DNA of 64,000 nucleotides. Origin: Harmothoe impar. Lineage: Eukaryota > Annelida > Polychaeta > Phyllodocida > Polynoidae. The DNA lies in contig OX381709.1 in NCBI GenBank assembly GCA_947462335.1, positions 63,356,609 through 63,420,608 on the forward strand, given 5' to 3'. This document shows positions 32,707-64,000 of the stretch, one piece after another. The position numbers and the translations under genes are program-made. The stretch's first letter is position 1, and each line of letters starts with the position of its first letter. Under the pieces are notes generated by a model. It was not told the origin of the DNA, searched no databases, and saw only the letters and a program-made list of their open reading frames with translations.

Positions 32707-33889
32707 ATATACAGTGAAATCTCGTTATAAGGAGGACGGTTAGCGGACGGTTATAAGGAGCATATTGGCTTTGCCAAAACCTTTTCTTTACTTTTCTATA
32801 GTAAAAAAACACCATTAGAACGAGTATTTCTAGCCAGAAATCGTTTATAAGGAGCAAATATTTTCAAGATAGTAAGTTATTCTTTATTGAAATAAGGTGT
32901 AATAATGTGTGAGCCTTTGTCAGGACTTGCATTGTAAGGGGCCAGGGGGAGGCTGGGCCTTTGTCAGGACTTCTCTGTGATATGGGTGGCCTACAGGGGT
33001 GTTGGTACGGACCTGTGAGTGGGGGGGGGGGGGGGGGCCTGGGGGGGGGCCTTTGTTAGGACTTCTCTGTGATATGGGCGGCCTACAGGGGTGTTGGTAC
33101 GGATCTGAGTGGGGGGGGGGATGGGGGGCAGGGGGAGGCGGGGCCTTTGTCAGGACTTCTCTGTGATATGGGCGGCCTACAGGGGTGTTGGTACGGACCT
33201 GTGAGTGGGGGGGGGGCAGGGGGGGCGGGGCCTTTGTCAGGACTTCTCTGTGATATGGGCGGCCTACAGGGGTGTTGGTACGGACCTGTGAGTGGGGGGG
33301 GGGCAGGGGGGGCGGGGCCTTTGTCAGGACTTCTCTGTGATATGGGCGGCCTACAGGGGTGTTGGTACGGACCTGTGAATGGGGGGGGGGCAGGGGGGGC
33401 GGGGCCTTTGTCAGGACTTCTCTGTGATATGGGCGGCCTACAGGGGTGTTGGTACGGACCTGTGAGTGGGGGGGGGGGGGGCAGGGGGGGCGGGGCCTTT
33501 GTCAGGACTTCTCTGTGATATGGGCGGCCTACAGGGATGTTGGTACGGATCTGTGAGTGGGGGGGGGGCAGGGGGGCGGGGCCTTTGTTAGGACTTCTCT
33601 GTGATATGGGCGGCCTACAGGGGTGTTGGTACGGATCTGTGAGGGGGGGGGGGGGCAGGGGGGCGGGGCCTTTGTCAGGTCTTCTCTGTGATATGGGCGG
33701 CCTACAGGGGTGCACAGAACGTTTCGACCTGAGGGGGGGACCCCTCTGCACCCCCCCCCCCAAAAAAAAGGGGAGGAGGGGGGGGGGGCTTTGTTATGAC
33801 TTGTCAATGACCAAAATCGGTTACAAGGAAGGTTGGTTACAACGAGCAAATTTCCCTTGCCAAAAGTTGCTCCTTATAACGAGATTTTA

Positions 33890-52737: not shown

Positions 52738-55700
52738 AGCACAATCAGCACAACAATGCATAACAATATCTAACCGTAGATATAGATATTATGATATTAT
52801 GATAAGTGCCGCACAAGCTCTGACCCTATAGCTCGCAGTTAGTCTTTTAAACACTAATAAATTCACATAGTGTTAGGCTTAATCGGCATGGAAATGATCT
52901 GCTTATAAATAAATGTAGGCAATACGGACTAAGTAATGTAGTATTCATTGCGGTTGAACTAATCATAGATATTGTCATCTAGCTATACACATGGAAATCT
53001 TTGCTGTCTTACTCCAGATTTGTTGTGGAAAGTGAACCATGTTTTAATTATTTCACTTATGGCAGTCCATTTGGAATCATGTGTATTAGTTGGTTTCCTT
53101 GCCAAACAGCGAACCAGTTCTCTTACTATTCGGATTTGGTCATTTGAGTTTAAAGCTGCCCCGTAAAGAATCTTCACATGACTTAGTTGTTTACTTATTA
53201 AGTATGCAACAGTATCTATATTCAAATGGGATAAATACTGTAATTTCTCTCTTTCCACTTAGAAATGTAAAGTTCTAGTTCCCAACCATGGGGGTCCAGT
53301 GGTATGTATTCTCAGAGGCTGTTCTTCAAATCCCTACTACAAGTAGGGAGTAGTAGGGAGTAGTACTAGTGGGACGTCAGGTTATTTTCCGGTGCCACTG
53401 TATGGACACTTCTACCACTACATGCCAACCCTCAAATATTTGGGAGATGATTTGAAATGTTTGATATCCATACGAGTAGTTTATACTATTTTTCTGCCAT
53501 AAGGTAATTAACTCCAACATGTGTGCCTGAAAATATGGGTAGCTTGGAATAACAACAAGCAGGTAGACTGAAACAGCAGTATCGGTACCCCAGTAGGCAC
53601 AAAATTTAGCTCAAAGTTGAATCAATGTTGAATCAACATTGAATCAACATTTGCAACCGTTGGTCAACATTGATTCAATGTTCTGTGCACACTGGGATGT
53701 ACCAGAAACCAACACATGCGCAGCTCGGACAGAAGCTGAGGAGGCTCTCTGATATTCACATTCAAGAATACAACCAGTGCATAAATAACTCAGACAATAT
53801 TGGCAAGTTTGATATTCTTAAAACCCGTCAAAACGATTTGAAGTATCCATATGGGGCGCGCGAGTACCTAGGTCACACACACTTCCCTTATATTTATATA
53901 GAAATATTATTACAAAGCTGCGCATAGATTCTAACTGTACTCAGGACAGCTTATCAAGAAGTGATAGAGGAAAAAAACATTGAATTATAATGTGCACACA
54001 TTGTAACGTTACGCAAGATGCCCGCAAAAGCTTTGAAGAAAAATAATTAAGTTTGCCACAGCTTATGACATGCATTGGGACAACAGAAAGGTCTCGCAAA
54101 TATTAACTGTAGAACCATATTGTATATCATCAAACAGGCCGGGAGCCATCAACTATATACATGTATATTCCTATATAAAAACTGTGTATAATGCCATCAT
54201 TGCTAACTCAGTGCTGACATAAATGTATCTTTACATTAGTCAATAAAGCCATCTTGAATCTTGAATTGTGTGCCACTTCGTAAGGAATTCCAATTATCAT
54301 TAAAACCTGATTTATGTTTTGTAAACTTCTAGGTGGAAAAGGAGAAAGAGCGAAAACGAGAAAAACGAGAACGAAAGGAGAGGAAGGAGAAGGAGAGGAA
54401 GGAGAGGGCTGCGACTCTGTCGGGTTCGTCCGGGGGAGACGGTGCTGGAGATCAGAGTGTGGGAGACTGGCCGCCAGCTGGAGAGGGAGGACAGACCAAC
54501 AACAACAAGACCACCTCAGACAACAACCACCTGCAGCTGGCCGGGGGCGGCAATGTCAACGGCTCCAACTCGGCCAGCAATGTGAGCCTCAACGGCCGGC
54601 TCATCCTGGCCGACCCCAGCAGGCGCATGAGCAACTCACTCAAGGTGGAGATGGACGATCGGGCCGGGCGGGGCGTTAAGGACATCTCAGATGGCCCCAA
54701 GATGGGCACGGACGGCAACGTGCTGTCGGACAATGACCGCCTCATGTCCAGCACCGGCTGTAAGCAGGTGAGTGGAGTTGGGGTTTACCTGTGCGCAGGT
54801 GAGTGGGGTTGGGGTTTACCTGTACACAAGTGAGTGGAGTTGGGGTTAACCTGTACGCAGGTGAGTGGGGTTGGGGTTTACCTGTACGCAGGTGAGTGGA
54901 GTTGGGGTTAACCTGTACGCAGGTGAGTGGGGTTGGGGTTTACCTGTACACAAGTGAGTGGAGTTGGGGTTTACCTGTACGCAGGTGAGTGGAGTTGGGG
55001 TTTACCTGTACGCAGGTGAATGGAGTTGGGGTTTACCTGTACACAGGTGAGTGAGGTTGGGGTTTACCAGTAACGCAGGTGAGTGAAGTTGGGGTTTACC
55101 TGTACGCAGGTGAGTGGAGTTGGGGTTTACCTGTACGCAGGTGAGTGGGGTTGGGGTGTACCTGTACGCAGGTGAGTGGGGTTGGGGTTTACCTGTACAC
55201 AGGTGAGTGGGGTTGGGGTTTACCAGTACGCAAGTGAGTGGGGTTGGGGTTTACCTGTACACAGGTGAGTGGGGTTGGGGTTTACCTGTACACAGGTGAG
55301 TGGGGTTGGGTTTACCTGTACACAGGTGAGTGGGGTTGGGGTTTACCTGTACACAAGTGAGTGGAGTTGGGGTTTACCAGTACGCAGGTGAGTGGCGTTG
55401 GGGTTTACCTGTACACAGGTGAGTGGGGATGGGGTTTACGAGTACGCAGGTGAGTGGGGTTGGGGTTTACCTGAAACCAGTCTAGCAGATGCATTGGGGT
55501 TCACCTGTAAGGTGGTGAGCAGGTTTGCTTGTGTTCAGTAAGATTGTCTGACACACCAGGCCCGGTGGTTAATACAGTCAGATAATTATTGGAATTTTGC
55601 ATGACACTTTAAAATAAACTTATCATAATTGCAACGACAGCTATTGAATGATACTAATGCAACGCGGGTAATGTATAAAATACCCCAATATATAGTAAAT

Positions 55701-58700
55701 ATGAATATGTTAGGGCCAGAATCAAAGGAAACGAGATTTTAATGAATGGATTCCACGGTTAATTGATAGTAGCCATTCAGTATTATTACTGTATCAGACT
55801 GGCTTGCAGAAAGGTGGTCTGACAGGAGTGCATGCCCCTATGCATACGAATGTACTCATACTAAAACTCTTTCTCTGTCCACCAGTTCGGTCATCAGAAC
55901 TCGCAGATTGACGACTCGCACAGTATAATGTCTATGGACAACCAAGGGGATGCTCCAGGCGTAATGATCCAAGGTAGGTCTGGAAGCCTACATATATACT
56001 CTATACTCTTACCGAAGGCTTCAATATTAGAATGATTAAACTAGCAAAACCAATAGAATACTGCCATTACTAATATGAAGGCATCCGGGTGATTCCCTTA
56101 ATAATCACCATGCCCCATGTCAATTTTAAAAAGAGTCTATGCGCTTTAAGAAATGCCAATATCCCATGTCATTACATGTCTTCTTATTGGCTTTGGGACC
56201 TTGTCCCCAAAGCCATTTACACCACAGACCAGAGTGTCGCTTTTTTTGGCTTTGGGACCTTGTCCCCAAAGCCATTTACACCACAGACCAGAGTGTCGCT
56301 TTTTCGACAAGAAAAGACTAGCATAGGCCCCCTTGTTCATTGTTATATATAGCCCTAGCTGGCCCTAAAACCTTGCCTAGGACTGGTATCCCCATGTGTC
56401 CTTATAGGTGTGTGCAAGACTAATTTATCCTAGATCTTGTTTTCAGTTACTACATGTAGAACCAATGTACCTTGTGGTAAGGCCTAGATATCTTGTGAAC
56501 AGCCATATTTTGAGTTCTCTAATGTGGCTGTCAATGGCAAGGATAGGTACCAGCCTAATAACTATTGACTCCTATGTCAAGCCAAGCTGTCAATGTCAAT
56601 CCCAATTCCCATACAGGACCTATACTGGAGGTTGAGTGGTCCAGGGTGGCTCTTGAAATCACTCAAGCCCGCCCAAAGACAAACTGTGAAGTCCAACATA
56701 ATTACCCCTCCCCCACCCAACACACACATGCACCAACCCTGAAATAATATTCTACAGTCTTTAAAGGAAGGTCATCACAAGTCCTCCTTCTGCCCCCCTC
56801 CTCTTCCCTGTGCCTCCCTGTGCCCTCTCCTCCTCCTCCTCCTCCCTGTGCCCTCTCCTCCTCCTCCCTCTGCCCTCTCCTCCTCCCTCTGCCCCTCCTA
56901 CTACCCCATCTTTACCCTCCTCCCCACTCTACCTCCTTCTTGTTACCTTCTCCTCCCTCTGCCCACTCTACCCCATTTTCCTCCTTCCTGTTACCTTCTC
57001 CCCCCCCCCCCTCTGCCTTCCCTCCTCCCTCTGCCCCCTCCTCCTCCCTCTGGCTGCCAAGATGGCTGCCGAAAACTCAAGATTGTCTGATTTCCTTGTG
57101 TGATACATGGATAACAGGGTTTTCTGGGATGTAGAATCAGTTCTCAGGCTCAGATTTTCAATCCGAGAAATTTCCAAGATGGCTGCCAAGATGGCTGCCA
57201 AAAACTCAAGATTGTGTAAGGGCAGTGGTTACCGAACCGACCCAGTAACGTACGGCGCTGTTAGATTGTCAGACGGGGAAGTAGCTCAGTGGTAGAGCAC
57301 TTGGCTCCGGAGTCAGGGGGTCGTGGGTTCGAGTCCCGCTTTCTCCAGACGATTTTTCCGCGACCGTTACACTGGTGGAGAAAGCGAGCGCACTCGCTGG
57401 TACGGTTGACTTAGATGGTTGGAGCATCCCAACTTGCTGGGGATTGGCCACCTGCTGGCGGTTGGTAGTTGGAGGAGCAGGTAGTGAAGAGTTGGTTCCC
57501 AGTACGGGCAGTTGGAGTTCAGCATGGAGTCAAGTCAACAAATTGGCTGGATCGGTTCGGCACTGTGAGCTTCTATCATTGGCTGCTACGGGGCATGATA
57601 GAGGCTGGGGGAGCTGTGTAAGGGCAGTGGTTACCGAACCGACCCAGTAACGTACGGCGCTGTTAGATTGTCAGACGGGGAAGTAGCTCAGTGGTAGAGC
57701 ACTTGGCTCCGGAGTCAGGGGGTCGTGGGTTCGAGTCCCGCTTTCTCCAGACGATTTTTCCGCGACTGTTACAATTGTCTGATTTCCTTGTGTGATACAT
57801 GGATAATCGGGTTTTCTGGGATGTAGAATCCATTTTCAGACTCAAATTTTTAATCCGGGAAATTTCCAAGATGGCTGCCAAGATGGCCACCAAAAACTCA
57901 AGATTGTCTGATTTCCTTGTGTGATACATGGATAATAGGGTTTTCTGGGATGTAGAATCCATTTTCAGACCCAAATTTTCAATCCGAGAAATTTCCAAGA
58001 TGGCTGCCAAGATGGCCACCAAAAACTCAAGATTGTCTGATTTCCTTGTATGACTCATGTATAATCGGGTTTTCTGGTGTGTAGAATCCATTTGTAGGCT
58101 CCGATTTTTGATCCATGTAATTTTCAAGATGGCTGCCAAGATGGTATTTGCATAGGCATCAATGGAGTGCATCGCCACCAATGGAATTGCATTGGTACCT
58201 ATTTGATTCCATTAGTACATATTGGATTCTATAGTTATACCAGCTGCAGTAAAACCAATTAAAATCAAAAAGATTTAGCTAAGTGCATGTAGTTAACTGA
58301 CCATGCAGTGTTGCTGCAAACCATCAAATATGAATTGCATAAGAACCCCAGAAACTCCAACAATTATAAATATATGCCCCCTTTTTTTCTCACCTGTAGT
58401 TCATGACAATCCTATAAAAACCCAAAGCCACTACGGCTTTGCCGTAAAATCCTTGAATTTGTCCCCTTGTTCCTCCTGCCGTTTGCCACTAAGCCTCAAC
58501 ATGCCCATTTCGCCGTGTCGAATTAAGGGGTCTAGGGTCGTTTGTAGTCACGTTGTGTATGAAATAATCTATTATAATTTTGTTTCCATACTGTTGAATT
58601 ATCAAGATGATGACGACCAGGAGCTTATAGACCGGAACTGCCAATGCTGTGGCCGTTGCTGCTACGGCTACCCACGATGGCTGGCGTTTCAGAATGTTCT

Positions 58701-61700
58701 CTACATGATAGTGACAGATCTCATCTTTGAGTTGTTCATCTCCGCCTGTGTTCTCTTCAACGTTGTCGTCATGGCAATAGAACATACGCATATGCAACCG
58801 GAACTAGCCAGAGCCCTGGAGTATGCCAATCTAGTATGTATCTTTTTTTAAAGTGCAATGTATAATTATCATAATTGCCAATACGAGCAAGTTCCCTCTC
58901 AATTATATGGATACAATTTAGATAGCATGAAAGTACATGCATTCACTGAGTTTTATGATTATGTTTTTATTTGACAGGTCTTCACAGTGATATTCACATT
59001 AGAGGCCTTCTTAAAACTAATGGCCATGGGAAAGGACTATTTCAAATCGTCGTGGAACATCTTTGATTTTCTCATCGTCATAGTGTCTCTTATCGATCAG
59101 TCACTCGCCGCTATGGAGGGGCTTGATGAAATACAGGGACTTGAGACTATCAAAGTATTGAGAATGGTAAGCTTCGTCACGTTTGTGTAATGTATATTAT
59201 GATTCTACAGACGCATGAATCTTTCTGACTAATAACATAATTGCCTATTTTAGGTTCATGTTTCATACAACTTAAACAATTTTAACTATTCATGACATAT
59301 ACTCCAAGGCAGACAGACACTTCATAAAATGAAAGAAATTAACATTGTGGGTGTTTTCCCATATAATAAGCCTTACAATCGCAATGTTTGCATATCCCCC
59401 ATAGCGCCCTTACTTGGGAGACATGTTAAACGCATTATCGGATATTGGGTTATTGAAGGGGAAGCAACAGTAAGAAATTATGACACTGCACAATCTAACT
59501 GCTGCAATAGTTATACTAGAAGCGATTCAACTTCAAGCATCGTGCAATTTCCGATTCTGCGCCTTAACGATATATTCTATGATTGGATTTTTTCTAGGTA
59601 CGATTAATGCGTATCTTCCGACTGGCACAAACATGGACCACTATGAAGGTGCTTATCGCCATCATGGTGCGGACACTGGGGGCCCTGGGCAACCTTTGTC
59701 TCATCCTCGCTATTGCTATCTACATCTTTGCTGTCTTCGGAATGCAGCTACTCGGGAAGTCGTATACACCGGATAAATTCCCAGGGGGAGAGGTACCACG
59801 GTAGGTTTATGTCAAGTTCCCTTATTTAAAGGTACTGTGATAGGTTCATGTCAAGATCCTAGATGGAGAGGCACCATGGGAGGTTCATGTCAAGTTTGCA
59901 GATGGAGGGGCACCCCTCCCCCCGTCATAAAAAAAAGCTACCAGTCCGTTATGATATTACCCCTAGAGAAATCTTAAAATAGATTATGATATAACTATGT
60001 ATTCATACAATTCAAACTATGATGCCACTACTGCACTCCTGCTGTTGTAGTCTATACACTTAAACTATTTAGAAGTTAGTCATGGATATTTTTCTCGTTT
60101 CAGATTTAGGTTTGAAAGCTTCTGGCACGCGATATTCCTAATATTCCGCATCTTGTGTGGTGAATGGATAGAACCGCTCTGGGACTGCATGCTGGCTGCC
60201 GGCGAGTACTGGTGCTCGTTTGTCTTCTTTCCCACACTAGTACTGGGGAATTTTGTGGTAAGTGCATTCTTATTAATATGGTTAATTACTGTTCTATTGA
60301 TAAAGAGTAATATTTGAACAGCACATATGATGGATATTCATCTTGGCTGTCCGAATTACTGATACGATCATTTGAAAATGTTACCTATGAGCCCGGGGGG
60401 GCACTCAATTTTTTTTTGACACGGGTGTGCGGCTGGCCCTTTGACAACCCTTACCCTTGGTGAGGGGGATTTTGGTCAGAAGTGACCCTTGGTGAGGGGG
60501 ATTTTGGTCAAAAGTGACCCTTGCTGAGGGGGATTTTGGACAAATGTGCCTAGGTTTTAGCAATTTTCTCCGAGGAGTCGGCCTTGGTGTAACAATTTTG
60601 GTCAAAAGTGACCCTTCTTGCAAAGAATTTGGCAAAATGCGACCCTTTATCGGGGATTTTGTTGAAATATCCGAAAAGTGACCTTTGGTGAGGGGGATTT
60701 TGGTGAAAATTGACCCTTGGTGAGGGGGATTTTGGTGAAAAGCAGACCCTTGGTGAGGGGGATTTTGGTCAAAAAGTACCCTTCCCAGCCGCACACCTGT
60801 GTATACAACATATACCAAGTGCCCCCCCGGGCCTATGAGCATCGAAAGGACTTTGTGGTTCAATTTATGGTCCTACTCACAAATGCCGTCTTCGCATAGG
60901 TCTTGTTAGATTTACATTCTTCATACCATATCGTTGATACACATAAATATCATAGTATGCATTTTATATTATCGCAGATACTAAACCTGTTCCTTGCTCT
61001 GATGCTCAACTCCTTTGCCACCGACAACCTGAGTAAGGTGAAAGAAGAGGCAAAGGACGATAAGATGAAAGAAGGTTGGTCCAAGCTTAAAGGACTCTTC
61101 AAGAGCAAGAGCAGTTCAGTGGAGCCACAAGGTGGACTTGAGTCCAAGAAACCCTCCATTGCTGACATAGTTGAGGAGCTGAAAAGGCAGCAGAAAGCCG
61201 TGTACGGGGATGAGGATGACAGCATGTCTGTTAGATCTGCAGGATCCAAACTTAGTATTGCAGAAAGTAAGCCCACATTACCACACTTTATTCCCTGATC
61301 TAAGTGCCAAATTGTAGCTTTCCTGTGGATATAGTATACATATTAGTGTTATGTAATATAGTAGGTCTATAATTATAGACTATATCATGCATAGCCGACT
61401 TAATTGTCAACTTACTTACTTCTTTAAGCTGAGTTGATAATACAACAAGAATCGAGATCATTCATGATTGAAGGACCTGCTGCTCCAGTAGGCTACGTCT
61501 ATTTGATATCCCTCTTCACACCAGTTTATTAAATCAAATATGCCATTATGTTTGTAGAGGATCGGGTGAGATCAATAGAGCTCACTGCTATGAACGGAGA
61601 TTCATCATACCTAGAGGACGAAAGTGCAGAAAACGCTAAAAACAGAGAAAAATCCCCCAATGGTACCATCAGAGGCAAGAAAACAAACGTAAGGCACCCA

Positions 61701-63125
61701 AAAGTATCACTGCTGTATAGGGAGATTAGCATGCTTTAATTATTTGTTGATGCAGTCAAATGAAACAGATAGATAGAAATAATCTAAAGAAGGATGCAAA
61801 GTCATTGGGAAAAGATGTCCAGAGAGTGAAACCAGTTCAACAGTTATACTGTTAAATTCTGGAATCCTCACTGTGTCTTTCATAATGGTTTCATACAATT
61901 GATTTATCTATTTCGGTTAACATAAGCTTCCCCAGATTATGTTGCCACCATCTAATAGGCCTACACGAACTCCCGAAAGCCGCTAACCTAAATAATAGAT
62001 ATACCACCAGTCGATAACACACACCTGGTCTTGATACTGGTTGTTTTGATGTTTCTAGGATATTGCTGAGGCTTTTCAAACAGACCGTGGGAAGTTTGCT
62101 GAATTCAACACAGCGATGACAGAAAATAGCAAGAAACCAAGCCCTGAGGTGATTGATACCGACCCTAAATCTAGTAAGACGGCCTGGGACAAAGAACCAA
62201 AGAAGGATGACATGAATAGGGACGTAGAAGCTGATGAGGATCAGGAGGACAATACAATCCATGATTGTTTTCCACCCATATGCTGCTCATGCACGTAAGT
62301 ACTTCTAGTGAATCACTGTGGTGGCACCCCATACAGGAGCCTTTTCCGATCCAGAGAACGGTAGAAACACAAGATTTTCTCTCATATGGCCAATAGGTGA
62401 AATTAGAGTTTCTTTTGGTTGAGCCAAACATTTCTCCCATCCAATAATCAGAGGAACATACTGTATGAATGATACTCTCTCTCTTTCCCCCTTTCCTCCT
62501 CTCTCCCTTTCTTCCCTCTCCTCCCTCCCTTCCTCCCCTCTCCTACCTCTCTTCCTTGCCCCTCTCCCATTCTTCCCTCTCCTCCCTCTCCTCCCTCCCT
62601 TCCTCCCCTCTCCTCCCTCTCTTTCTCGCCCCTCTCCCATTCTTCCCTCTCCTTCCTCTTTTCCTCCTCTCTTTCTTCCTGCCCTCTCCTCCCTCTCTTC
62701 CTCGCCCCTCTCCCATTCTTCCCTCTCCTCCCTCTCTTCCCCCCTCTCCTCCCTCTCTTCCTTGCCCCTCTCCCATTCTTCCCTTTTGTCCCTCTCTTCC
62801 TCCCTTCTCCTCTCTCTCTCTCCCTCCTATCTTCTACTCTCTTCTTCCCTTCTCCTATCTCCCTTCTCTATTCCTCCCCTCTCCTCTCTCTTGCTCCCTC
62901 TCCTCCCTCTCTTGCCCCTTTCTTTCTTCCTGCCCTCTCCTCCCTCTCTTCCTGCCCTCTCCTCCCTCTCTTCCTAGCCCCTCTCCCATTTTCCCTCTCC
63001 TTCCTCTTTTCCTCCTCCCTCTCTTCCTTGTCCCTCTCCCATTCTGCCCTTTCCTCCCTCTCTTCCTCCCCTCTTCTCTCCTCTCTTCCTCTCCTCCCTC
63101 TCTTCCTCTTCTCTTTCTTCCTCCC

Positions 63126-63169
<44 letters not shown>

Positions 63170-63848
63170 CTCTCTCCTCCTCTTTTCCTCCCTTCTCCTA
63201 TCTCCCTTCCTTCCCCTCCTCCCTCTTTTCCACCCCTCTCTTCCTCCTTCTGTTCCTCCCCTCTCCTCTTTCTTCCTCCCATCTCCACCCTCTCCTATTT
63301 CCAAAACTATCTACATTAAAGTACTGCCTCGAAAAACGTTAAGATGTGCCTTACCTAGGGTGGCAACCATATTATGATTGTTGATACCTGTTCAACACAG
63401 GCATTACATTTGCATTCTGCTTCAGTATATCAGAGAGCAGCCACACAGTTAGCTTCTCCCATTAAACTGGTTACTTGATAATGTGTTATTTCACAGAAAA
63501 TGAATTTGAGCAACTTACCTTCCTTTCAGATTCTGTGGCTGTTACCAGAGTGTTTCTGAAAGTGCATGTGGAGGCTGCTGGACCAGATTCCGACGGGTCG
63601 TCCACAAAGTGGTGGAACACAAGGCCTTTGAGTACTTCATCCTCCTCATTATTGTGGCCAGTAGTTTTACACTGGCATTTGAGGATGCCTACCTCTACCG
63701 GAACCACGAGCTCAATAGGATCTTGACCTACCTCAACTATGCATTTGCCGCCATATTCATAGTAGAAATGTTACTCAAGTGGATCGCCATAGGATTCCAT
63801 AAGTACTTCACTGCTGTCTGGACAGTGCTTGATTTCTGCATTGTTATC
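9433..63848 (+). CDS. Voltage-gated sodium channel alpha subunit, partial (17 exons, 3' end outside window)
   Basis: Spliced CDS: 9433-10005, 47261-47475, 48080-48208, 48567-48673, 49030-49233, 49527-49732, 50472-50606, 54333-54767, 55886-55973, 58607-58833, 58978-59166, 59598-59800, 60104-60257, 60978-61266, 61558-61688, 62059-62294, 63530-63848. All introns are GT-AG and every phase joins without a stop, giving 1280 residues. The product is a pore-forming plasma-membrane channel with four six-helix repeats; DI, DII and DIII S1-S3 are here. Visible: DI S4 with R326/R329/R332/K335, DI filter Asp470 (LDFWED), DII S4 with K832/R835/R838/R841/R844, and DII filter Glu924 (CGEW). The family is certain. 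Nav1 versus Nav2 is open because the DIII filter residue is not in the window; segments such as [10 protein letters not shown] and [18 protein letters not shown] recall the Nav2/DSC1 branch from memory. The I-II linker (about 170 residues) is short compared with vertebrate Nav1. Confidence 0.95.
10006..14333 (+). other. Intron 1, segment 1
   Basis: Start of the 37-kb first intron (donor gtaggc at 10006). AT-rich, with no nested gene supported. A short tandem duplication of caactccaatttacaccga occurs at 11368-11410 and a C-rich tract at 11977-11990. Confidence 0.6.
14334..14546. mobile_element. Foldback/MITE family A, copy 2
   Basis: A second copy of the element at 4893-5106, with matching outer arms (agatagacaatggttatg / cataaccatagtctatct) and the same central gggcgacttgggcttcgccc hairpin. 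Lies in intron 1. Confidence 0.75.
14547..16761. other. Intron 1, segment 2
   Basis: No gene, RNA or clear repeat family recognised. Confidence 0.5.
16762..17428. mobile_element. Dispersed repeat family B, compact copy
   Basis: Starts with a hairpin ggctttgggaccttgtcccc and ends with cccaaagccactacggctct followed by gccgtaaaat. The whole 0.67-kb order (tttacaccacag, cccttgttcattgtta, gagtggtccagggtggctct, cctataaaaaccc) recurs in intron 9 at 56189-58470. Inverted ggctttggg / cccaaagcc at the ends suggests a non-autonomous DNA element. No coding capacity. Confidence 0.65.
17429..23855. other. Intron 1, segment 3
   Basis: No gene supported. A GC-rich, CpG-containing block at about 22600-22960 stands out from the AT-rich background. 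A 16-bp tandem duplication (ccagtggtttaagtcc) lies near 21920. Confidence 0.5.
23856..24051. mobile_element. Diverged copy of the 180-bp CAGT-ended MITE
   Basis: Aligns by eye with 2114-2293: cagtcaagtttatctaatg, ttgccacccttagcactat, gtggccgcatt and ggctggtaagagtgctt occur in the same order. Its ends have decayed and it is not within a TA microsatellite, so it looks like an older insertion. Confidence 0.55.
24052..26745. other. Intron 1, segment 4
   Basis: No gene or repeat family recognised beyond small G/C tracts. Confidence 0.5.
26754..27197. mobile_element. hAT-like MITE family C, copy 1 (8-bp TSD GTTCGGTG)
   Basis: Flanked by GTTCGGTG at 26746-26753 and 27198-27205. Terminal inverted repeats cccggggggg.actcaa / agtgccccccccgggg include an inner gtgtgcggctgg / ccagccgcacac. 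Between them are about eleven units of a 32-bp tandem repeat (cccttggtgagggggatttt ggtcaaaagtga). An 8-bp target duplication is characteristic of hAT transposons. Repetitive reading frames across it are not genes. Confidence 0.85.
27206..29390. other. Intron 1, segment 5
   Basis: No gene or repeat family supported. Confidence 0.5.
29390..30885. repeat. 134-bp satellite array with a three-unit higher-order repeat
   Basis: About eleven copies of a 129-139 bp unit, marked by tatggggtgccaactgttca, attaatgcaactacaa and gcattgtggcattcaatga. The block 29407-29813 (three units) is repeated nearly exactly at 29814-30222, giving a higher-order period of about 408 bp. The 3' units are more diverged. 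Repeated short reading frames here are artefacts. Confidence 0.9.
30886..32616. other. Intron 1, segment 6
   Basis: AT-rich, no gene or repeat family supported. Confidence 0.5.
32617..32711. repeat. (TA)n microsatellite, left flank of the 1.2-kb MITE
   Basis: About 90 bp of TA repeats ending at the terminal inverted repeat at 32712. Confidence 0.97.
32712..33892. mobile_element. 1.2-kb non-autonomous TIR element (CAGT ends, TA target) with internal minisatellite
   Basis: Left end CAGTGAAATCTCGTTATAAG and right end (complement) CAGTAAAATCTCGTTATAAG form the inverted repeat, extended by ggag. TA flanks both sides. Subterminal copies of ttataaggagca / gcaaatttcccttgcc follow. CAGT ends plus a TA target again fit pogo/Tc1-mariner. 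The interior is almost entirely an 87-bp minisatellite; there is no transposase. Confidence 0.82.
32940..33800. repeat. 87-bp G-rich minisatellite inside the 1.2-kb element
   Basis: About nine to ten units with cctttgt at 32958, 33050, 33144, 33231, 33318, 33405, 33496, 33582 and 33669. The core is cctttgtcaggacttctctg, then tgatatgggcggcctacagg, ggtgttggtacgga and a run of 8-17 G. Because 87 is divisible by three, both strands show long repetitive reading frames, which I regard as non-genic. Confidence 0.92.
33893..33968. repeat. (TA)n microsatellite, right flank of the 1.2-kb MITE
   Basis: About 70 bp of TA repeats starting at the right terminus of the element. Confidence 0.97.
33969..34974. 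other. Intron 1, segment 7
   Basis: No gene or repeat family supported. Confidence 0.5.
34975..35246. mobile_element. Foldback/MITE family A, diverged relative
   Basis: Shares the shoulder and arm motifs (gacaaaggagttcatacctaggttat, agaaagacaatggttatg, cataaccatagtctatctatta) with the copies at 4893 and 14334, but rearranged and partly duplicated. Intron 1. Confidence 0.55.
35247..39573. other. Intron 1, segment 8
   Basis: No gene, RNA or clear repeat recognised. Confidence 0.5.
39574..39847. mobile_element. Foldback element with 70-bp arms and internal 30-bp tandem repeat
   Basis: The left arm aaaggtgtcaactgtgtctc, then ccacgtggctctgg and gtgtcaaacagcta, is matched in inverse order by the right arm ending gagacacagttgacaccttt. 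Between them, 39645-39765 has four to five 30-bp units (acactgatagtagagagtca actcaagttg). No coding potential. The target duplication is not clear. Confidence 0.8.
39848..41124. other. Intron 1, segment 9, with small repeats
   Basis: No gene supported. A 95-bp inverted-repeat element lies at 40517-40611. Degenerate repeats of cttgtcgattttaagaaatg occupy about 40655-40850. Confidence 0.5.
40517..40611. mobile_element. Short foldback family D, copy 1
   Basis: Arms ctggtcaccgcccactgggc and gcccagtggacggtgaccag are nearly complementary, around a loop of about 55 bp. A related element is at 43327-43409. Confidence 0.6.
41125..41335. repeat. 42-bp minisatellite, first block
   Basis: Units of 42 bp with agaacatg at 41171, 41213, 41255 and 41297 (core gccacatagaacatgacatg, then tttgtaagtacaacctcatg). 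The period is a multiple of three, which explains a 14-residue repetitive reading frame. Confidence 0.88.
41580..41792. repeat. 42-bp minisatellite, second block
   Basis: The same 42-bp unit (ttgccacatagaacatgaca) resumes after 245 bp of unrelated sequence, with more divergence between units. The array was probably interrupted or expanded twice. Confidence 0.82.
41862..42002. mobile_element. 141-bp PIF/Harbinger-like MITE (TTA target duplication)
   Basis: Terminal inverted repeats of about 40 bp start gggccataacccattagccg and end cgggtaatgggttatggccc. TTA flanks both sides (41859-41861, 42003-42005). GGGCC-type ends with a 3-bp TTA duplication fit PIF/Harbinger. Confidence 0.75.
42006..47260. 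other. Intron 1, last segment
   Basis: No gene or RNA supported apart from foldback copy 43327-43409. A direct repeat (acttccaagcacgtg) occurs near 44030 and 44100. It ends at the acceptor tttctttcag at 47260. Confidence 0.55.
43327..43409. mobile_element. Short foldback family D, copy 2
   Basis: Arms atggccactgtccactggg and cccagtggacggtggccat, similar in sequence and spacing to the element at 40517-40611. Confidence 0.6.
47261..47475 (+). CDS. Sodium channel exon 2: pre-S1 and DI S1 (residues 192-263)
   Basis: The acceptor tttctttcag precedes [20 protein letters not shown], which matches the conserved Nav pre-S1 block. [11 protein letters not shown] and the S1 helix ([19 protein letters not shown]) follow. 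The donor is gtaagt, and the exon ends in phase 2 inside Glu263. It follows a 37-kb intron. Domain order and phase both join cleanly to exon 1. Confidence 0.95.
48080..48208 (+). CDS. Sodium channel exon 3: DI S2-S3 (residues 263-306)
   Basis: Encodes [20 protein letters not shown] (S2) and [16 protein letters not shown] (S3). The LRDxWNWLDFxVI signature is diagnostic of Nav domain I. Acceptor tattttcag, donor gtaagt; starts and ends in phase 2. The preceding intron (47476-48079, 604 bp) has U2-type ends. Confidence 0.96.
48567..48673 (+). CDS. Sodium channel exon 4: DI S4 voltage sensor (residues 306-342)
   Basis: Encodes [36 protein letters not shown], written here by parts: S3-S4 loop to residue 321, then S4 with Arg326, Arg329, Arg332 and Lys335 at every third position. 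Acceptor ttacag, donor gtatgt. I saw no second, mutually exclusive copy of this exon in either flanking intron, unlike the DI S3-S4 exon pairs of vertebrate Nav genes. Confidence 0.95.
49030..49233 (+). CDS. Sodium channel exon 5: DI S4-S5 linker, S5 and start of extracellular loop (residues 342-410)
   Basis: Starts with [14 protein letters not shown], the highly conserved DI S4-S5 linker. S5 follows ([20 protein letters not shown]), then [10 protein letters not shown] and a variable turret segment ending HLKNQ. Acceptor attgcag, donor gtaagt. Intron 4 (48674-49029) and intron 5 (49234-49526) are short and I see nothing else in them. Confidence 0.95.
49527..49732 (+). CDS. Sodium channel exon 6: DI pore loop with filter Asp470 (residues 410-478)
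   Basis: Contains the extracellular Cys-rich turret ([19 protein letters not shown], with N-glycosylation sequons NNT and NHT). [19 protein letters not shown] follows, then [10 protein letters not shown]. Asp470 aligns with the D of the DEKA/DEEA filter, and Phe471 is the aromatic site that in Nav1 affects tetrodotoxin binding. Acceptor attttcag, donor gtaagt, ends in phase 0. Confidence 0.96.
49881..49951 (-). ncRNA. tRNA-derived SINE head (degenerate), in intron 6
   Basis: On the minus strand, TAGCACAGTGGTAGAATGC (A box, complement of 49933-49943) is followed after about 33 bp by GGTTCTCGCCCC (B box, 49889-49900). Order and spacing match a tRNA promoter, but the B box is imperfect and the acceptor stem does not close well, so this is a decayed tRNA-related sequence rather than a tRNA gene. 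Confidence 0.45.
50472..50606 (+). CDS. Sodium channel exon 7: DI S6 (residues 479-523)
   Basis: Encodes [20 protein letters not shown] and [20 protein letters not shown], the pore-lining S6 helix with the conserved SFYLxNLxLAVV motif. It ends QAGK at the start of the I-II linker. Acceptor tatcctcag, donor gtaggt, phase 0 on both sides. The next intron (50607-54332, 3.7 kb) holds two inverted-repeat elements and TA microsatellites. Confidence 0.96.
51048..51365. mobile_element. 318-bp TIR element in intron 7
   Basis: Inverted ends ggccactccaaacaaaaaat + gttggtccacggattt and aaaatccgtagaccaacg + tttttttgggtgtggcc match over about 36 bp with a few mismatches. Interior non-coding. No target duplication resolved. 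Confidence 0.65.
51735..52557. mobile_element. 823-bp TIR element in intron 7, flanked by TA repeats
   Basis: Left end gaagagtttggatgcaaaac + gacataaatcca and right end ttatgtcgttttgcatccaa + actcttc are inverted repeats. The subterminal word gcaaaacgacataaatcc occurs several more times inside, in both orientations. No transposase. Short TA repeats lie on the left (51718-51734) and a long array on the right. Confidence 0.8.
52558..52735. repeat. (TA)n microsatellite
   Basis: About 175 bp of TA repeats with rare G or AA interruptions, starting directly at the end of the 823-bp TIR element. Long Ile-Tyr reading frames on both strands are artefacts. Confidence 0.97.
53592..53696. mobile_element. 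Small MITE-like repeat with CCCAGT ends
   Basis: Ends cccagtaggcac and gtgcacactggg are imperfect inverted repeats enclosing several copies of tgaatcaacattgaatcaac-like sequence. A related end (gcacacactggg) occurs near 50910. Low-confidence family call. Confidence 0.45.
54333..54767 (+). CDS. Sodium channel exon 8: I-II cytoplasmic linker (residues 524-668)
   Basis: Begins with about 28 residues almost only Lys, Glu and Arg ([20 protein letters not shown] onward), expected to form a charged single helix or coiled coil. A Gly/Ser/Asn-rich disordered segment and [21 protein letters not shown] follow; the RRMSNS part resembles a basophilic kinase site. Acceptor cttctag, donor CAG|gtgagt, phase 0 on both ends. 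The donor is the first unit of a 31-bp minisatellite. Read-through adds about 21 residues and then a stop at 54831. Confidence 0.9.
54768..55480 (+). repeat. 31-bp minisatellite made of 5' splice sites, start of intron 8
   Basis: About 23 tandem units of 31 bp: caggtgagtggggttggggt + ttacctgtaca. The first unit contains the authentic exon 8 donor CAG|GTGAGT at 54765-54773, and most later units (54799, 54830, 54861 ... 55450) repeat CAGGTGAGT or CAAGTGAGT. The unit is not a multiple of three, so use of a distal donor would normally shift frame or hit a stop. Rich in GGGG and GGTT runs. Confidence 0.95.
55886..55973 (+). CDS. Sodium channel exon 9: I-II linker (residues 669-698)
   Basis: A short exon encoding [29 protein letters not shown]. 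The acceptor has a good pyrimidine tract (ctttctctgtccaccag) and the donor is AAG|gtaggt. It starts in phase 0 and ends in phase 1, which fits exon 10 exactly to give Asp698. No transmembrane content. The phase fit and the two strong splice sites are the main support. Confidence 0.82.
57215..57371 (+). repeat. 5' LTR of the TRIM-like element
   Basis: 157 bp, TGTAAG...GTTACA. A 60-bp leader, the 73-nt tRNA-like gene, a T5 run at 57353-57357 and 14 bp to the CA end. Confidence 0.88.
57275..57347 (+). tRNA. tRNA-like gene in 5' LTR
   Basis: 73 nt from GGGGAAG to TTTCTCC+A. The acceptor stem pairs 7/7 with two G-U. The D arm is GCTC/GAGC and the T arm GTGGG-TTCGAGT-CCCGC. The A box TAGCTCAGTGG and B box GGTTCGAGTCC match consensus, and a Pol III terminator TTTTT lies 5 nt downstream. 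The anticodon arm pairs best as CTTGG/TCAGG with an 8-nt loop CTCCGGAG; a 7-nt loop would expose CCG (Arg) but leaves a poor stem. It may serve as primer and promoter rather than in decoding. CCA is not encoded. Confidence 0.7.
57373..57386 (+). promoter_or_regulatory. Primer-binding site of the TRIM-like element
   Basis: TGGTGGAGAAAGCG is the exact reverse complement of CGCTTTCTCCA (tRNA-like 3' end, 57337-57347) followed by the CCA added after transcription. It starts one base after the 5' LTR, as expected for a retrotransposon PBS. Confidence 0.85.
57617..57773 (+). repeat. 3' LTR of the TRIM-like element
   Basis: Identical to the 5' LTR except for one C-to-T change at 57767, pointing to a recent insertion. 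Confidence 0.88.
57677..57749 (+). tRNA. tRNA-like gene in 3' LTR
   Basis: Identical 73-nt copy of the tRNA-like gene at 57275-57347, with the same A and B boxes, expanded anticodon loop and downstream T5. Confidence 0.7.
58607..58833 (+). CDS. Sodium channel exon 10: pre-DII Cys cluster and DII S1 (residues 698-773)
   Basis: Encodes [11 protein letters not shown], then a juxtamembrane cluster [14 protein letters not shown] with five Cys (709-716). [20 protein letters not shown] begins DII S1, followed by [11 protein letters not shown] and the start of S2. The C-C-x-W-FQN layout is typical of Nav domain II. The acceptor attatcaag has a weak pyrimidine tract, but it is the only AG that restores phase. 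Donor CTA|gtatgt. Confidence 0.93.
58978..59166 (+). CDS. Sodium channel exon 11: DII S2-S3 and start of S4 (residues 774-836)
   Basis: Encodes [20 protein letters not shown] (S2), [17 protein letters not shown] (S3), a loop, and [10 protein letters not shown], the first two S4 charges (Lys832, Arg835). Acceptor tttgacag, donor gtaagc, phase 0 on both ends. Intron 10 is the shortest here (144 bp). Confidence 0.96.
59598..59800 (+). CDS. Sodium channel exon 12: rest of DII S4, S5 (residues 837-904)
   Basis: Continues S4 with [10 protein letters not shown] (Arg838, 841, 844), then [20 protein letters not shown] and S5 ([20 protein letters not shown]), ending [18 protein letters not shown]. The LGALGNL and IFAVxGMQL motifs are hallmarks of Nav DII. 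Acceptor tttttctag, donor gtaggt. QTWTTMK, where Nav1 usually has xxWPTLN, is one reason I lean towards the Nav2 branch. Confidence 0.96.
60104..60257 (+). CDS. Sodium channel exon 13: DII pore loop with filter Glu924 (residues 904-955)
   Basis: Encodes [20 protein letters not shown] and [16 protein letters not shown], the DII P-loop. Glu924 in CGEW is the second filter residue. [15 protein letters not shown] starts S6. Acceptor ctcgtttcag, donor gtaagt, ends in phase 0. The downstream intron carries a hAT-like MITE. Confidence 0.96.
60392..60831. mobile_element. hAT-like MITE family C, copy 2 (8-bp TSD CCTATGAG), in intron 13
   Basis: Flanked by CCTATGAG at 60384-60391 and 60832-60839. Same termini and same internal 32-bp repeat order as the copy at 26754-27197, so the array moved as part of the element. 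Lies 134 bp after exon 13 and 146 bp before exon 14. Confidence 0.88.
60978..61266 (+). CDS. Sodium channel exon 14: end of DII S6 and start of II-III linker (residues 956-1052)
   Basis: [20 protein letters not shown] is the S6 end with the conserved LNLFLALxLxSF motif. A charged linker follows ([20 protein letters not shown], then KSKSSSVE, and [20 protein letters not shown]). Acceptor ttatcgcag, donor gtaagc. Several Ser sites lie next to basic or acidic residues; phosphorylation is only an inference. Confidence 0.94.
61558..61688 (+). CDS. Sodium channel exon 15: II-III linker (residues 1052-1095)
   Basis: Encodes [20 protein letters not shown], then [24 protein letters not shown]. Hydrophilic, with no transmembrane segment. 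Acceptor atgtttgtag, donor gtaagg. The two-base start completes Lys1052 and the exon ends in phase 0. Support is the exact phase fit on both sides. Confidence 0.82.
62059..62294 (+). CDS. Sodium channel exon 16: II-III linker with Cys cluster (residues 1096-1174)
   Basis: [20 protein letters not shown] resembles the KIAEAFNRI block of Nav II-III linkers. An acidic/basic stretch rich in Asp, Glu and Lys follows, and the exon ends [10 protein letters not shown]. Acceptor gatgtttctag, donor gtaagt, ends in phase 2 within Thr1174. The following 1.2-kb intron is mostly a pyrimidine-rich tract. Confidence 0.9.
62470..63295. repeat. Pyrimidine-rich (CCTCT)n-like tract in intron 16
   Basis: About 825 bp almost without purines on the + strand, with repeated words ccctctcctccctctcttcc and cccctctcccattcttccct, and a pure (CT)n run at about 63130-63164. 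It starts about 175 bp after exon 16 and stops about 235 bp before exon 17. Long Ser/Leu/Pro or Arg/Glu/Gly frames on both strands are artefacts. Confidence 0.95.
63530..63848 (+). CDS. Sodium channel exon 17: DIII S1-S3, last exon in window (residues 1174-1280)
   Basis: Begins [17 protein letters not shown], the second half of a Cys cluster split by intron 16. [20 protein letters not shown] and [20 protein letters not shown] (S1) follow, then [17 protein letters not shown] (S2) and [14 protein letters not shown] (S3). VEHKxFExFI and ALAFED-like motifs are typical of Nav domain III. Acceptor cctttcag, donor ATC|gtgagt at 63849. The gene continues beyond the window. Confidence 0.95.
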
Positions 63849-64000
63849 GTGAGTTTAGATCAAATTTACTTCCATTTGACTATGCAAAATAGGGTTTTAG
63901 ATAAATCATCTATATGGTTACGTAGAGGTTAGATTTTGAAATTAGTTATCAATTTAAAATTTTGTTATCAATTTAAACTTCCTTTTTTAATGATAATATA

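Follow-up and report, generated by a model that had tools for sequence, protein, structure and literature searches.

The stretch of DNA analysed here (64,000 nucleotides of contig OX381709.1 of the polychaete Harmothoe impar; called the window in its full length) contains at 57215-57773 a 559-bp long terminal repeat (LTR) element of the terminal-repeat retrotransposon in miniature (TRIM) type, whose LTRs each carry a tRNA-like gene matching the element's own primer-binding site (PBS). A direct-repeat search and the sequence itself place the two LTRs at 57215-57371 (5′ LTR) and 57617-57773 (3′ LTR), both on the + strand, as are the other parts of the element described below. Both are 157 bp long with TG...CA ends, and they differ in a single base (CCGTTACA in the 5′ LTR versus CTGTTACA in the 3′ LTR). 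The 245-bp internal region between them (57372-57616) is too short for mobilisation proteins, and no gene was recognised in it, no protein family search having been run on this interior. A purine run, GGGGGAG (57607-57613), which stops 3 nt short of the 3′ LTR, is by its sequence a candidate polypurine tract. The element is bounded by ATTG at 57211-57214 and 57774-57777 and splits a 129-bp satellite (57051-58144); the unoccupied sequence CTCAAG-ATTG-TCTGATTT is seen in the satellite units at 57076, 57897, and 58026. Because these unoccupied units are present, the insertion and its 4-bp duplication can be seen directly, from the window alone.

Both ARAGORN and the Rfam tRNA model (RF00005; 53.9 bits, cut-off 29) recognise tRNA-like genes in the two LTRs, at 57275-57347 and 57677-57749. 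The acceptor of the 5′ LTR copy is Ala-like, with A73 and with G3:U70, a mark of alanine tRNAs; the anticodon loop has 8 nt, and the gene is therefore tRNA-like and not a readable tRNA. In the same LTR, the box A-like TAGCTCAGTGG (57282-57292) carries the TRGCY/YGG motif and the box B-like GGTTCGAGTCC (57326-57336) the GGTTC motif, both as given in the part of the paper on Helenus elements drawn on here (PMC10886601), and a T5 run is a candidate RNA polymerase III (Pol III) terminator (57353-57357 in the 5′ LTR, 57755-57759 in the 3′ LTR). A single base (C, 57372) separates the 5′ LTR from the 14-nt PBS TGGTGGAGAAAGCG (57373-57386), which pairs with tRNA positions 63-73 (CGCTTTCTCCA) plus CCA. 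The CCA is not encoded, because the DNA after A73 reads GAC. Within the 64-kb window the PBS 14-mer is unique on both strands, and its end is overlapped by a hairpin (AGCGAG/CTCGCT, 57383-57398).

We searched the window's own genome (1,511,831,793 bases, 736 contigs) with the whole 559-bp unit; the LTR alone was not used as a query. Forty of 1778 first-look candidates were scored, the window's copy included, and all 40 were full length or within 2 bases of full length at 99-100% identity, with two short partial matches at 69-72% also among the matches listed. Identical 4-mers flanked 34 of the 39 copies fetched (21 different 4-mers), and the exact PBS was kept in 38 of the 39. This family, designated A, has spread recently. 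The window's satellite flanks are common to 4 of the 39 fetched copies elsewhere in the genome; therefore the occupied satellite unit has probably itself been duplicated, and the window's insertion probably owes part of its spread to having been copied passively along with the satellite. Three scans of viral contigs confirmed no relative (25 stretches, none confirmed; 2 and 58 further stretches matched). The original prediction for this locus had described the 157-bp LTRs with TG...CA ends and the ATTG duplication, which the sequence and the empty satellite sites bear out, and a 14-nt PBS complementary to the gene's 3′ end plus a non-encoded CCA, which stands as described. It had also proposed a full tRNA-like gene with a terminator in each LTR; ARAGORN and the Rfam score uphold the gene, while its 8-nt loop departs from a full tRNA and the T5 run is only a candidate terminator. 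Further copies with distinct target duplications, whose absence it had named as refuting, are present in the genome, and PBS complementarity is kept in them and recurs in sister families with correspondingly changed PBSs. That the 157-bp repeat is widespread as a lone tRNA SINE, which it had also named as refuting, is made less likely, if indirectly, by the 40 scored matches to the 559-bp unit, all of them whole units.

These sister families came to light through the interior, which is open in one frame by chance: a protein search with that frame returned one stray open reading frame (ORF), P0001, and a second protein search returned the ORF P0002. Read back as DNA by hand, both showed another tRNA 3′ end with the PBS changed in step, and a covariation test was therefore suggested. 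A search of the window's genome with P0001 gave 150 scored places. Among them are family B, with an LTR of about 230 bp and an interior of about 226 bp, and family C, in which these measure about 231 bp and about 440 bp, besides others. The core of the family A interior is also found in families B and C, and the tRNA-like genes in B and C LTRs reach 58.7-62.4 bits with the Rfam tRNA model (six elements scanned). Family D has a 224-bp LTR and tRNA copies about 690 bp apart, with 4-bp duplications in 2 of 3 copies, one of them inside a TA repeat.

The PBS was placed by position only (14 bases, one base past the LTR end) and the tRNA 3′ end by box B. This left 99 of 131 loci usable; the 32 dropped lacked an LTR pair that the script could find, a recognisable box A/B, a terminal ACAC in the LTR, or a second tRNA-like copy, and old, poorly matched copies were kept in the counts (L140, 8/14; L168 and L171, 9/14). 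An element's own LTR tRNA end plus CCA matched its own PBS at 14/14 positions in 64 of the 99 elements and at 13/14 or better in 84, and the two LTRs disagreed in the tRNA end in 24. Pair type A joins the tRNA end CCCGCTTTCTCCA to the PBS TGGTGGAGAAAGCG (38 elements), type B joins CCCGGTGTCTCCG to TGGCGGAGACACCG (16 elements), and type C joins CCCGGTGTCTCCA to TGGTGGAGACACCG (10 elements); the corresponding 3′ ends are CGCTTTCTCCA, GGTGTCTCCG, and GGTGTCTCCA. Further LTR-like tRNA types (L215, L225, L229, and others), among them types whose anticodon arm contains CAGCAGGTTACGTGATCTG or ATTGGCCCATGGGTCTAG, share the end CCCGCTTTCTCCA.

When 70 distinct segments were aligned, 96.1% of cells paired over the 11 encoded tRNA-PBS pairs, the cells not being independent because the families are clonal. 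Both sides changed at 65 (GC 46, CG 20, GU 4), at 67 (GC 47, UA 20, GU 1, other 2), and at 73 (GC 34, AU 29, GU 2, other 5). The covariation score was 0.252, compared to 0.094 in shuffles (0 of 500) and at most 0.085 with a slid partner. The acceptor stem was paired in 99.6% of cells, with one pair switched on both sides (UG to AU), and the hairpin overlapping the PBS end in 92.0%; one pair of this hairpin differs on both sides from family to family. The switch events counted were A/D versus B/C, where 65 and 67 change together, and B versus C at 73; L182 was dropped as a possible fourth co-change because its two LTRs disagree. As a control, the U5 tail of B and C, CGGAGAAACCG, is nearly complementary to the tRNA end and ignores the change at 73 (by eye, uncounted). 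A genome census of position 73, made by four exact-pattern searches for B/C-type LTR ends with the PBS 28-44 bases on, gave A-T 44, G-C 53, A-C 4, and G-T 4, i.e., 97 of 105 LTR-PBS pairs matched and 8 mismatched (Fisher p 4e-20, which overstates the evidence because the copies are related, with a few local duplicates or palindromes among them). Several A-T pairs sit on B-like U5 tails (e.g., C12:8168871, C18:34534322, C18:56011989; by eye), hinting at more than one switch. A chance PBS match was rejected on the tRNA-PBS covariation and this census.

Host tRNA-Ala genes were found by pattern (231 matches, 100 listed), and 12 were fetched (2 TGC, 2 CGC, 8 AGC). Their 3′ ends are CCCCGGCATCTCCA (TGC, 2), TCCCGGCATCTCCA (CGC, 2), and forms of GATGCCCGGGTTCTCCA (AGC, 8), and the genes read mostly end in ATCTCCA or GTTCTCCA. 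Over the four Ala 3′ forms compared, that of L241 being left out, the host ends fit the three PBS types at 10-12/14 positions with a longest run of 10, versus 14/14 for the element's own LTR tRNA. LTR types B and C resemble host tRNA-Ala(TGC) at 59 and 60 of 72 aligned positions, respectively. Type C has the same first 25 bases as this host tRNA and differs from it at 66 and 67 with wobble pairs kept, and at both positions the type C PBS follows the LTR version, not the host one. A genome pattern for the A/D-type end, which required that no G follow it, returned 51 matches: 23 that their spacing assigns to D-type pairs or to one triple (of 10 pairs, 3 were read whole), 2 forming an A pair, and 26 singles. 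All 26 singles were read; 25 had LTR-like or palindrome flanks (by eye) and 1 was not a tRNA. No stand-alone tRNA gene with an A/D-type end was found among the sites read of these 51 matches. At least 2 of 13 B/C-type ends without a following A coincide with LTR or junction sites. A tRNA family search of the genome scored the best 63 of 100,471 candidates, which is not a full host tRNA list. Two large tandem host tRNA arrays were also seen, one at C12:62640037-62773253 (four read, all Lys(TTT); many places about 1360 bp apart) and one at C11:47271381-47388365 (three read, all Ala(AGC); many places about 300-560 bp apart).

Taken with the anatomy, the insertion, the recent spread, the exact LTR-PBS complementarity, and the covariation across families, the sequences suggest that the element is likely primed by a self-encoded tRNA-like RNA from its own LTRs. 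Transcription by Pol III would begin at the tRNA-like promoter of either LTR copy. Transcripts ending at the T run that closely follows the gene would be short precursors, which would be trimmed and receive a CCA tail as tRNAs do; transcripts continuing into the 3′ LTR would serve as template RNA. Annealed to the PBS, the CCA-tailed tRNA-like RNA would then be elongated by the reverse transcriptase of an autonomous partner, likely a Gypsy element, and that partner's integrase would insert the product, creating a 4-bp duplication. The junction expected from self-priming would be the LTR tRNA-like sequence and CCA joined to GTGTAACGG (A) or GTGTGAGGG (B/C). Priming by the element's own transcript had been put forward in the original prediction and is supported by the LTR-PBS covariation across families; the alternative offered there, a host tRNA of the same family, is made less probable by the 12 host Ala genes, which end otherwise, and by the A/D-end matches, among which those read showed no stand-alone tRNA gene.

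Several points weigh against self-priming. The transcription, processing, and priming steps are all deduced from sequence, and the template must be made by reading through the T run in the 5′ LTR. The lowest-energy free fold of the window's tRNA-like RNA is not a cloverleaf, and neither is its 8-nt anticodon loop in its favour. The covariation rests on few lineages, with at least two switch events, and two of the five covariation measures do not exceed the shuffles, namely pairs with a both-side change (4 versus 3.1; 111 of 500) and further pair types (11 versus 9.8; 62 of 500). The Helenus paper, in the part drawn on here, found no complementarity between the LTR tRNA-like sequence and the PBS and concluded that the former has no part in priming (PMC10886601). 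Furthermore, according to excerpts of another source, in human immunodeficiency virus and murine leukaemia virus one of the strands receives a copy of the primer tRNA, whereas in Ty1 and Ty3, the latter a Gypsy element, the PBS is inherited from element RNA and not from a tRNA copy (PMC7472051).

Priming by a host Ala-like tRNA, with the LTR tRNA-like sequence and the PBS alike through common descent from that tRNA, would agree with the resemblance of LTR types B and C to tRNA-Ala(TGC) and with the host tRNAs used by the Helenus families reported in the excerpted text (PMC10886601). However, the PBS tracks LTR-specific changes at 65, 66/67, and 73, and the A/D-end matches that were read yielded no stand-alone host gene, making this explanation unlikely; as a simple account, host tRNA-Ala was rejected on the 10-12/14 fit of the four 3′ forms compared. 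We regard as distinctly improbable a use in cis, in which the tRNA-like 3′ end within the element's own RNA, and not a free small RNA, pairs with the PBS. The pairing end could be that of the 5′ LTR or a CCA-tailed 3′ end of the template, and the pairing could shape the RNA, circularise it, or let its own 3′ end act as the primer. One and the same RNA does encode eleven of the 14 pairs, and at the locus L247 an LTR end is fused to an antisense piece made up of internal region, U3, tRNA, and CCA. Yet the remaining three PBS bases, TGG, fit a CCA, and the DNA of families A-D has no CCA after position 73; the two arms of L247 are of different LTR types, and therefore two molecules are indicated. 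A chance tandem pair of tRNA-derived short interspersed elements (SINEs) has next to no probability: such SINEs are common, but it is the entire 559-bp unit that is repeated in the genome, complete with TG...CA ends, 4-bp duplications, and PBS, and these genome copies refute a chance pair.

If the tRNA-like RNA plus CCA is the primer, longer primer copies may adjoin LTR ends; the usual length of a retroviral primer copy is 18 nt. At eight loci of types A, D, and E, all of them read, the LTR end is followed by at least 17 bases complementary to the tRNA-like 3′ end with CCA, and three further loci of types B and C fit this pattern. L244 (314-739), L245 (466-759), and L263 are palindromic LTRs that run to A73, CCA, and then the reverse complement of the whole LTR. 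GTAG is duplicated on both sides of L245, which is an integrated palindrome reaching the LTR start on both sides, and L244 and L263 likewise reach the LTR start. These three loci have the appearance of integrated products of a snap-back during reverse transcription, and DNA synthesis by snap-back on the tRNA-like stretch explains them better than primer copying does. We give an even chance to a general origin of the extended copies and palindromes by snap-back, in which the 3′ end of plus-strand strong-stop DNA would fold onto its own LTR's tRNA-like stretch and be extended; this explanation concerns the extended copies only, is compatible with any other reading, and leaves the covariation of ordinary elements unexplained. 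L247 (385-971), which also counts against self-priming, is a composite of one LTR and PBS joined to an antisense tRNA-U3-interior of a different LTR type. The 18-nt match at L261 and the 20-nt match at L262 were withdrawn as clear primer copies, since relative to a normal interior the former shows two one-base gaps and two changes and the latter one gap and two changes near the PBS, and both can also be explained by small indels. Neither L248, with 21-22 nt of tRNA complement after the 3′ LTR and a long flank duplication, nor L260, where the complement runs to about tRNA position 26, is ambiguous or a palindrome to the LTR start. They may be primer copies or aborted snap-backs, as an aborted snap-back could also stop short of the LTR start. 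Extended copies thus lend self-priming weak support, because most of the eight loci are palindromes or ambiguous. L246, outside the eight, is an older palindrome-like relative. L248 and L258 (C5:19669700-19671050) present a D element without most of its 5′ LTR, flanked by a duplication some 40-45 bp long; this may be an intermediate of reverse transcription that was captured without the help of integrase.

Elsewhere in the window, about 23 copies of a 31-bp unit with the splice-donor-like CAGGTGAGT lie at 54758-55473 and overlap the end of an open frame. Open frames at 58297-63932 presumably represent exons of a voltage-gated sodium channel, which they resemble, and an open frame at 796-1782 resembles a fragment of a non-LTR reverse transcriptase. 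A GC-rich tandem repeat (87/174/264-bp) at 32938-33712 is open in several frames on both strands.

Among known systems, the original prediction had named the plant TRIM Cassandra as the closest parallel, a place that belongs to Helenus, with its tRNA-derived LTRs and 4-bp duplications. Helenus (TRIMp3; Kojima 2024, PMC10886601) comprises short LTR elements of 311-1263 bp that encode no mobilisation proteins; as described in the part of that paper used here, tRNA-derived boxes A and B lie in both LTRs, some LTRs are predicted as tRNAs, the PBS, similar to those of Gypsy elements, follows directly after the 5′ LTR, and the duplications in animals are of 4 bp. The present element is likewise a TRIM, of 559 bp with two LTRs, and has tRNA-derived sequence with a TRGCY/YGG box A and a GGTTC box B in both of them. 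Its PBS also adjoins the 5′ LTR, one base after it, its 4-bp duplications occur in 34 of 39 A copies, and the purine run before its 3′ LTR is a candidate for the polypurine tract that Helenus elements have there. The 4-bp duplication further agrees with the Gypsy partner inferred for animals in the same excerpted text (PMC10886601). The two differ in the PBS: those reported for Helenus match tRNAs of the host (for bivalves, the tRNAs for Lys, His, Ile, Pro, Glu, and Ser; PMC10886601, in the part cited), whereas the present one fits its own LTR tRNA at 14/14 positions and the host Ala ends compared at 10-12/14. The present elements are therefore largely of Helenus-kind anatomy with a probably different priming mode, and an exception to the published statement of no complementarity.

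Like Cassandra, the present element is a miniature LTR element whose LTRs contain a small-RNA gene of the Pol III kind, but Cassandra carries 5S rRNA and the present element a tRNA-like gene; no 5S rRNA was found in the present LTRs, and only RF00005 tRNA matches reach the Rfam cut-off in the window. No self-encoded primer is described for Cassandra in the excerpted text of PMC10886601. Likenesses to tRNA-derived SINEs are limited to the tRNA-like Pol III promoter, as the direct repeats and genome copies show LTRs and a PBS in the present element. SINEs of this kind are not known to have LTRs, a PBS, or integrase-type duplications. Tf1 takes its primer from its own mRNA, at whose 5′ end RNase H makes a cut; element RNA would serve as primer in both cases, with a tRNA-like RNA plus added CCA proposed here. 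Searches of open-access full texts, a body that leaves out most subscription papers and all bioRxiv preprints, turned up no account of an LTR element that uses the tRNA of its own LTR as primer.

The elements would be an exception to the statement of the class-defining paper that the LTR tRNA-like sequence plays no priming role, and the priming question is testable because sister families with different primer-PBS pairs share one genome. Reverse transcription in LTR elements and retroviruses normally requires a tRNA of the host as primer. According to the part of the source consulted, LTR retroelements and retroviruses can be targeted at the primer site by small RNAs derived from the 3′ ends of host tRNAs (PMC7472051). 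If true, a self-made primer would free the element both from dependence on host tRNAs and from targeting by tRNA fragments. On balance, and by a modest measure, the evidence favours an LTR-element lineage that may have been freed from host tRNA primers, in which one Pol III promoter would yield both RNAs, the primer when transcription terminates and the template when it reads through, while primer and PBS would have co-evolved into a private lock and key that keeps sister families of one genome distinct.

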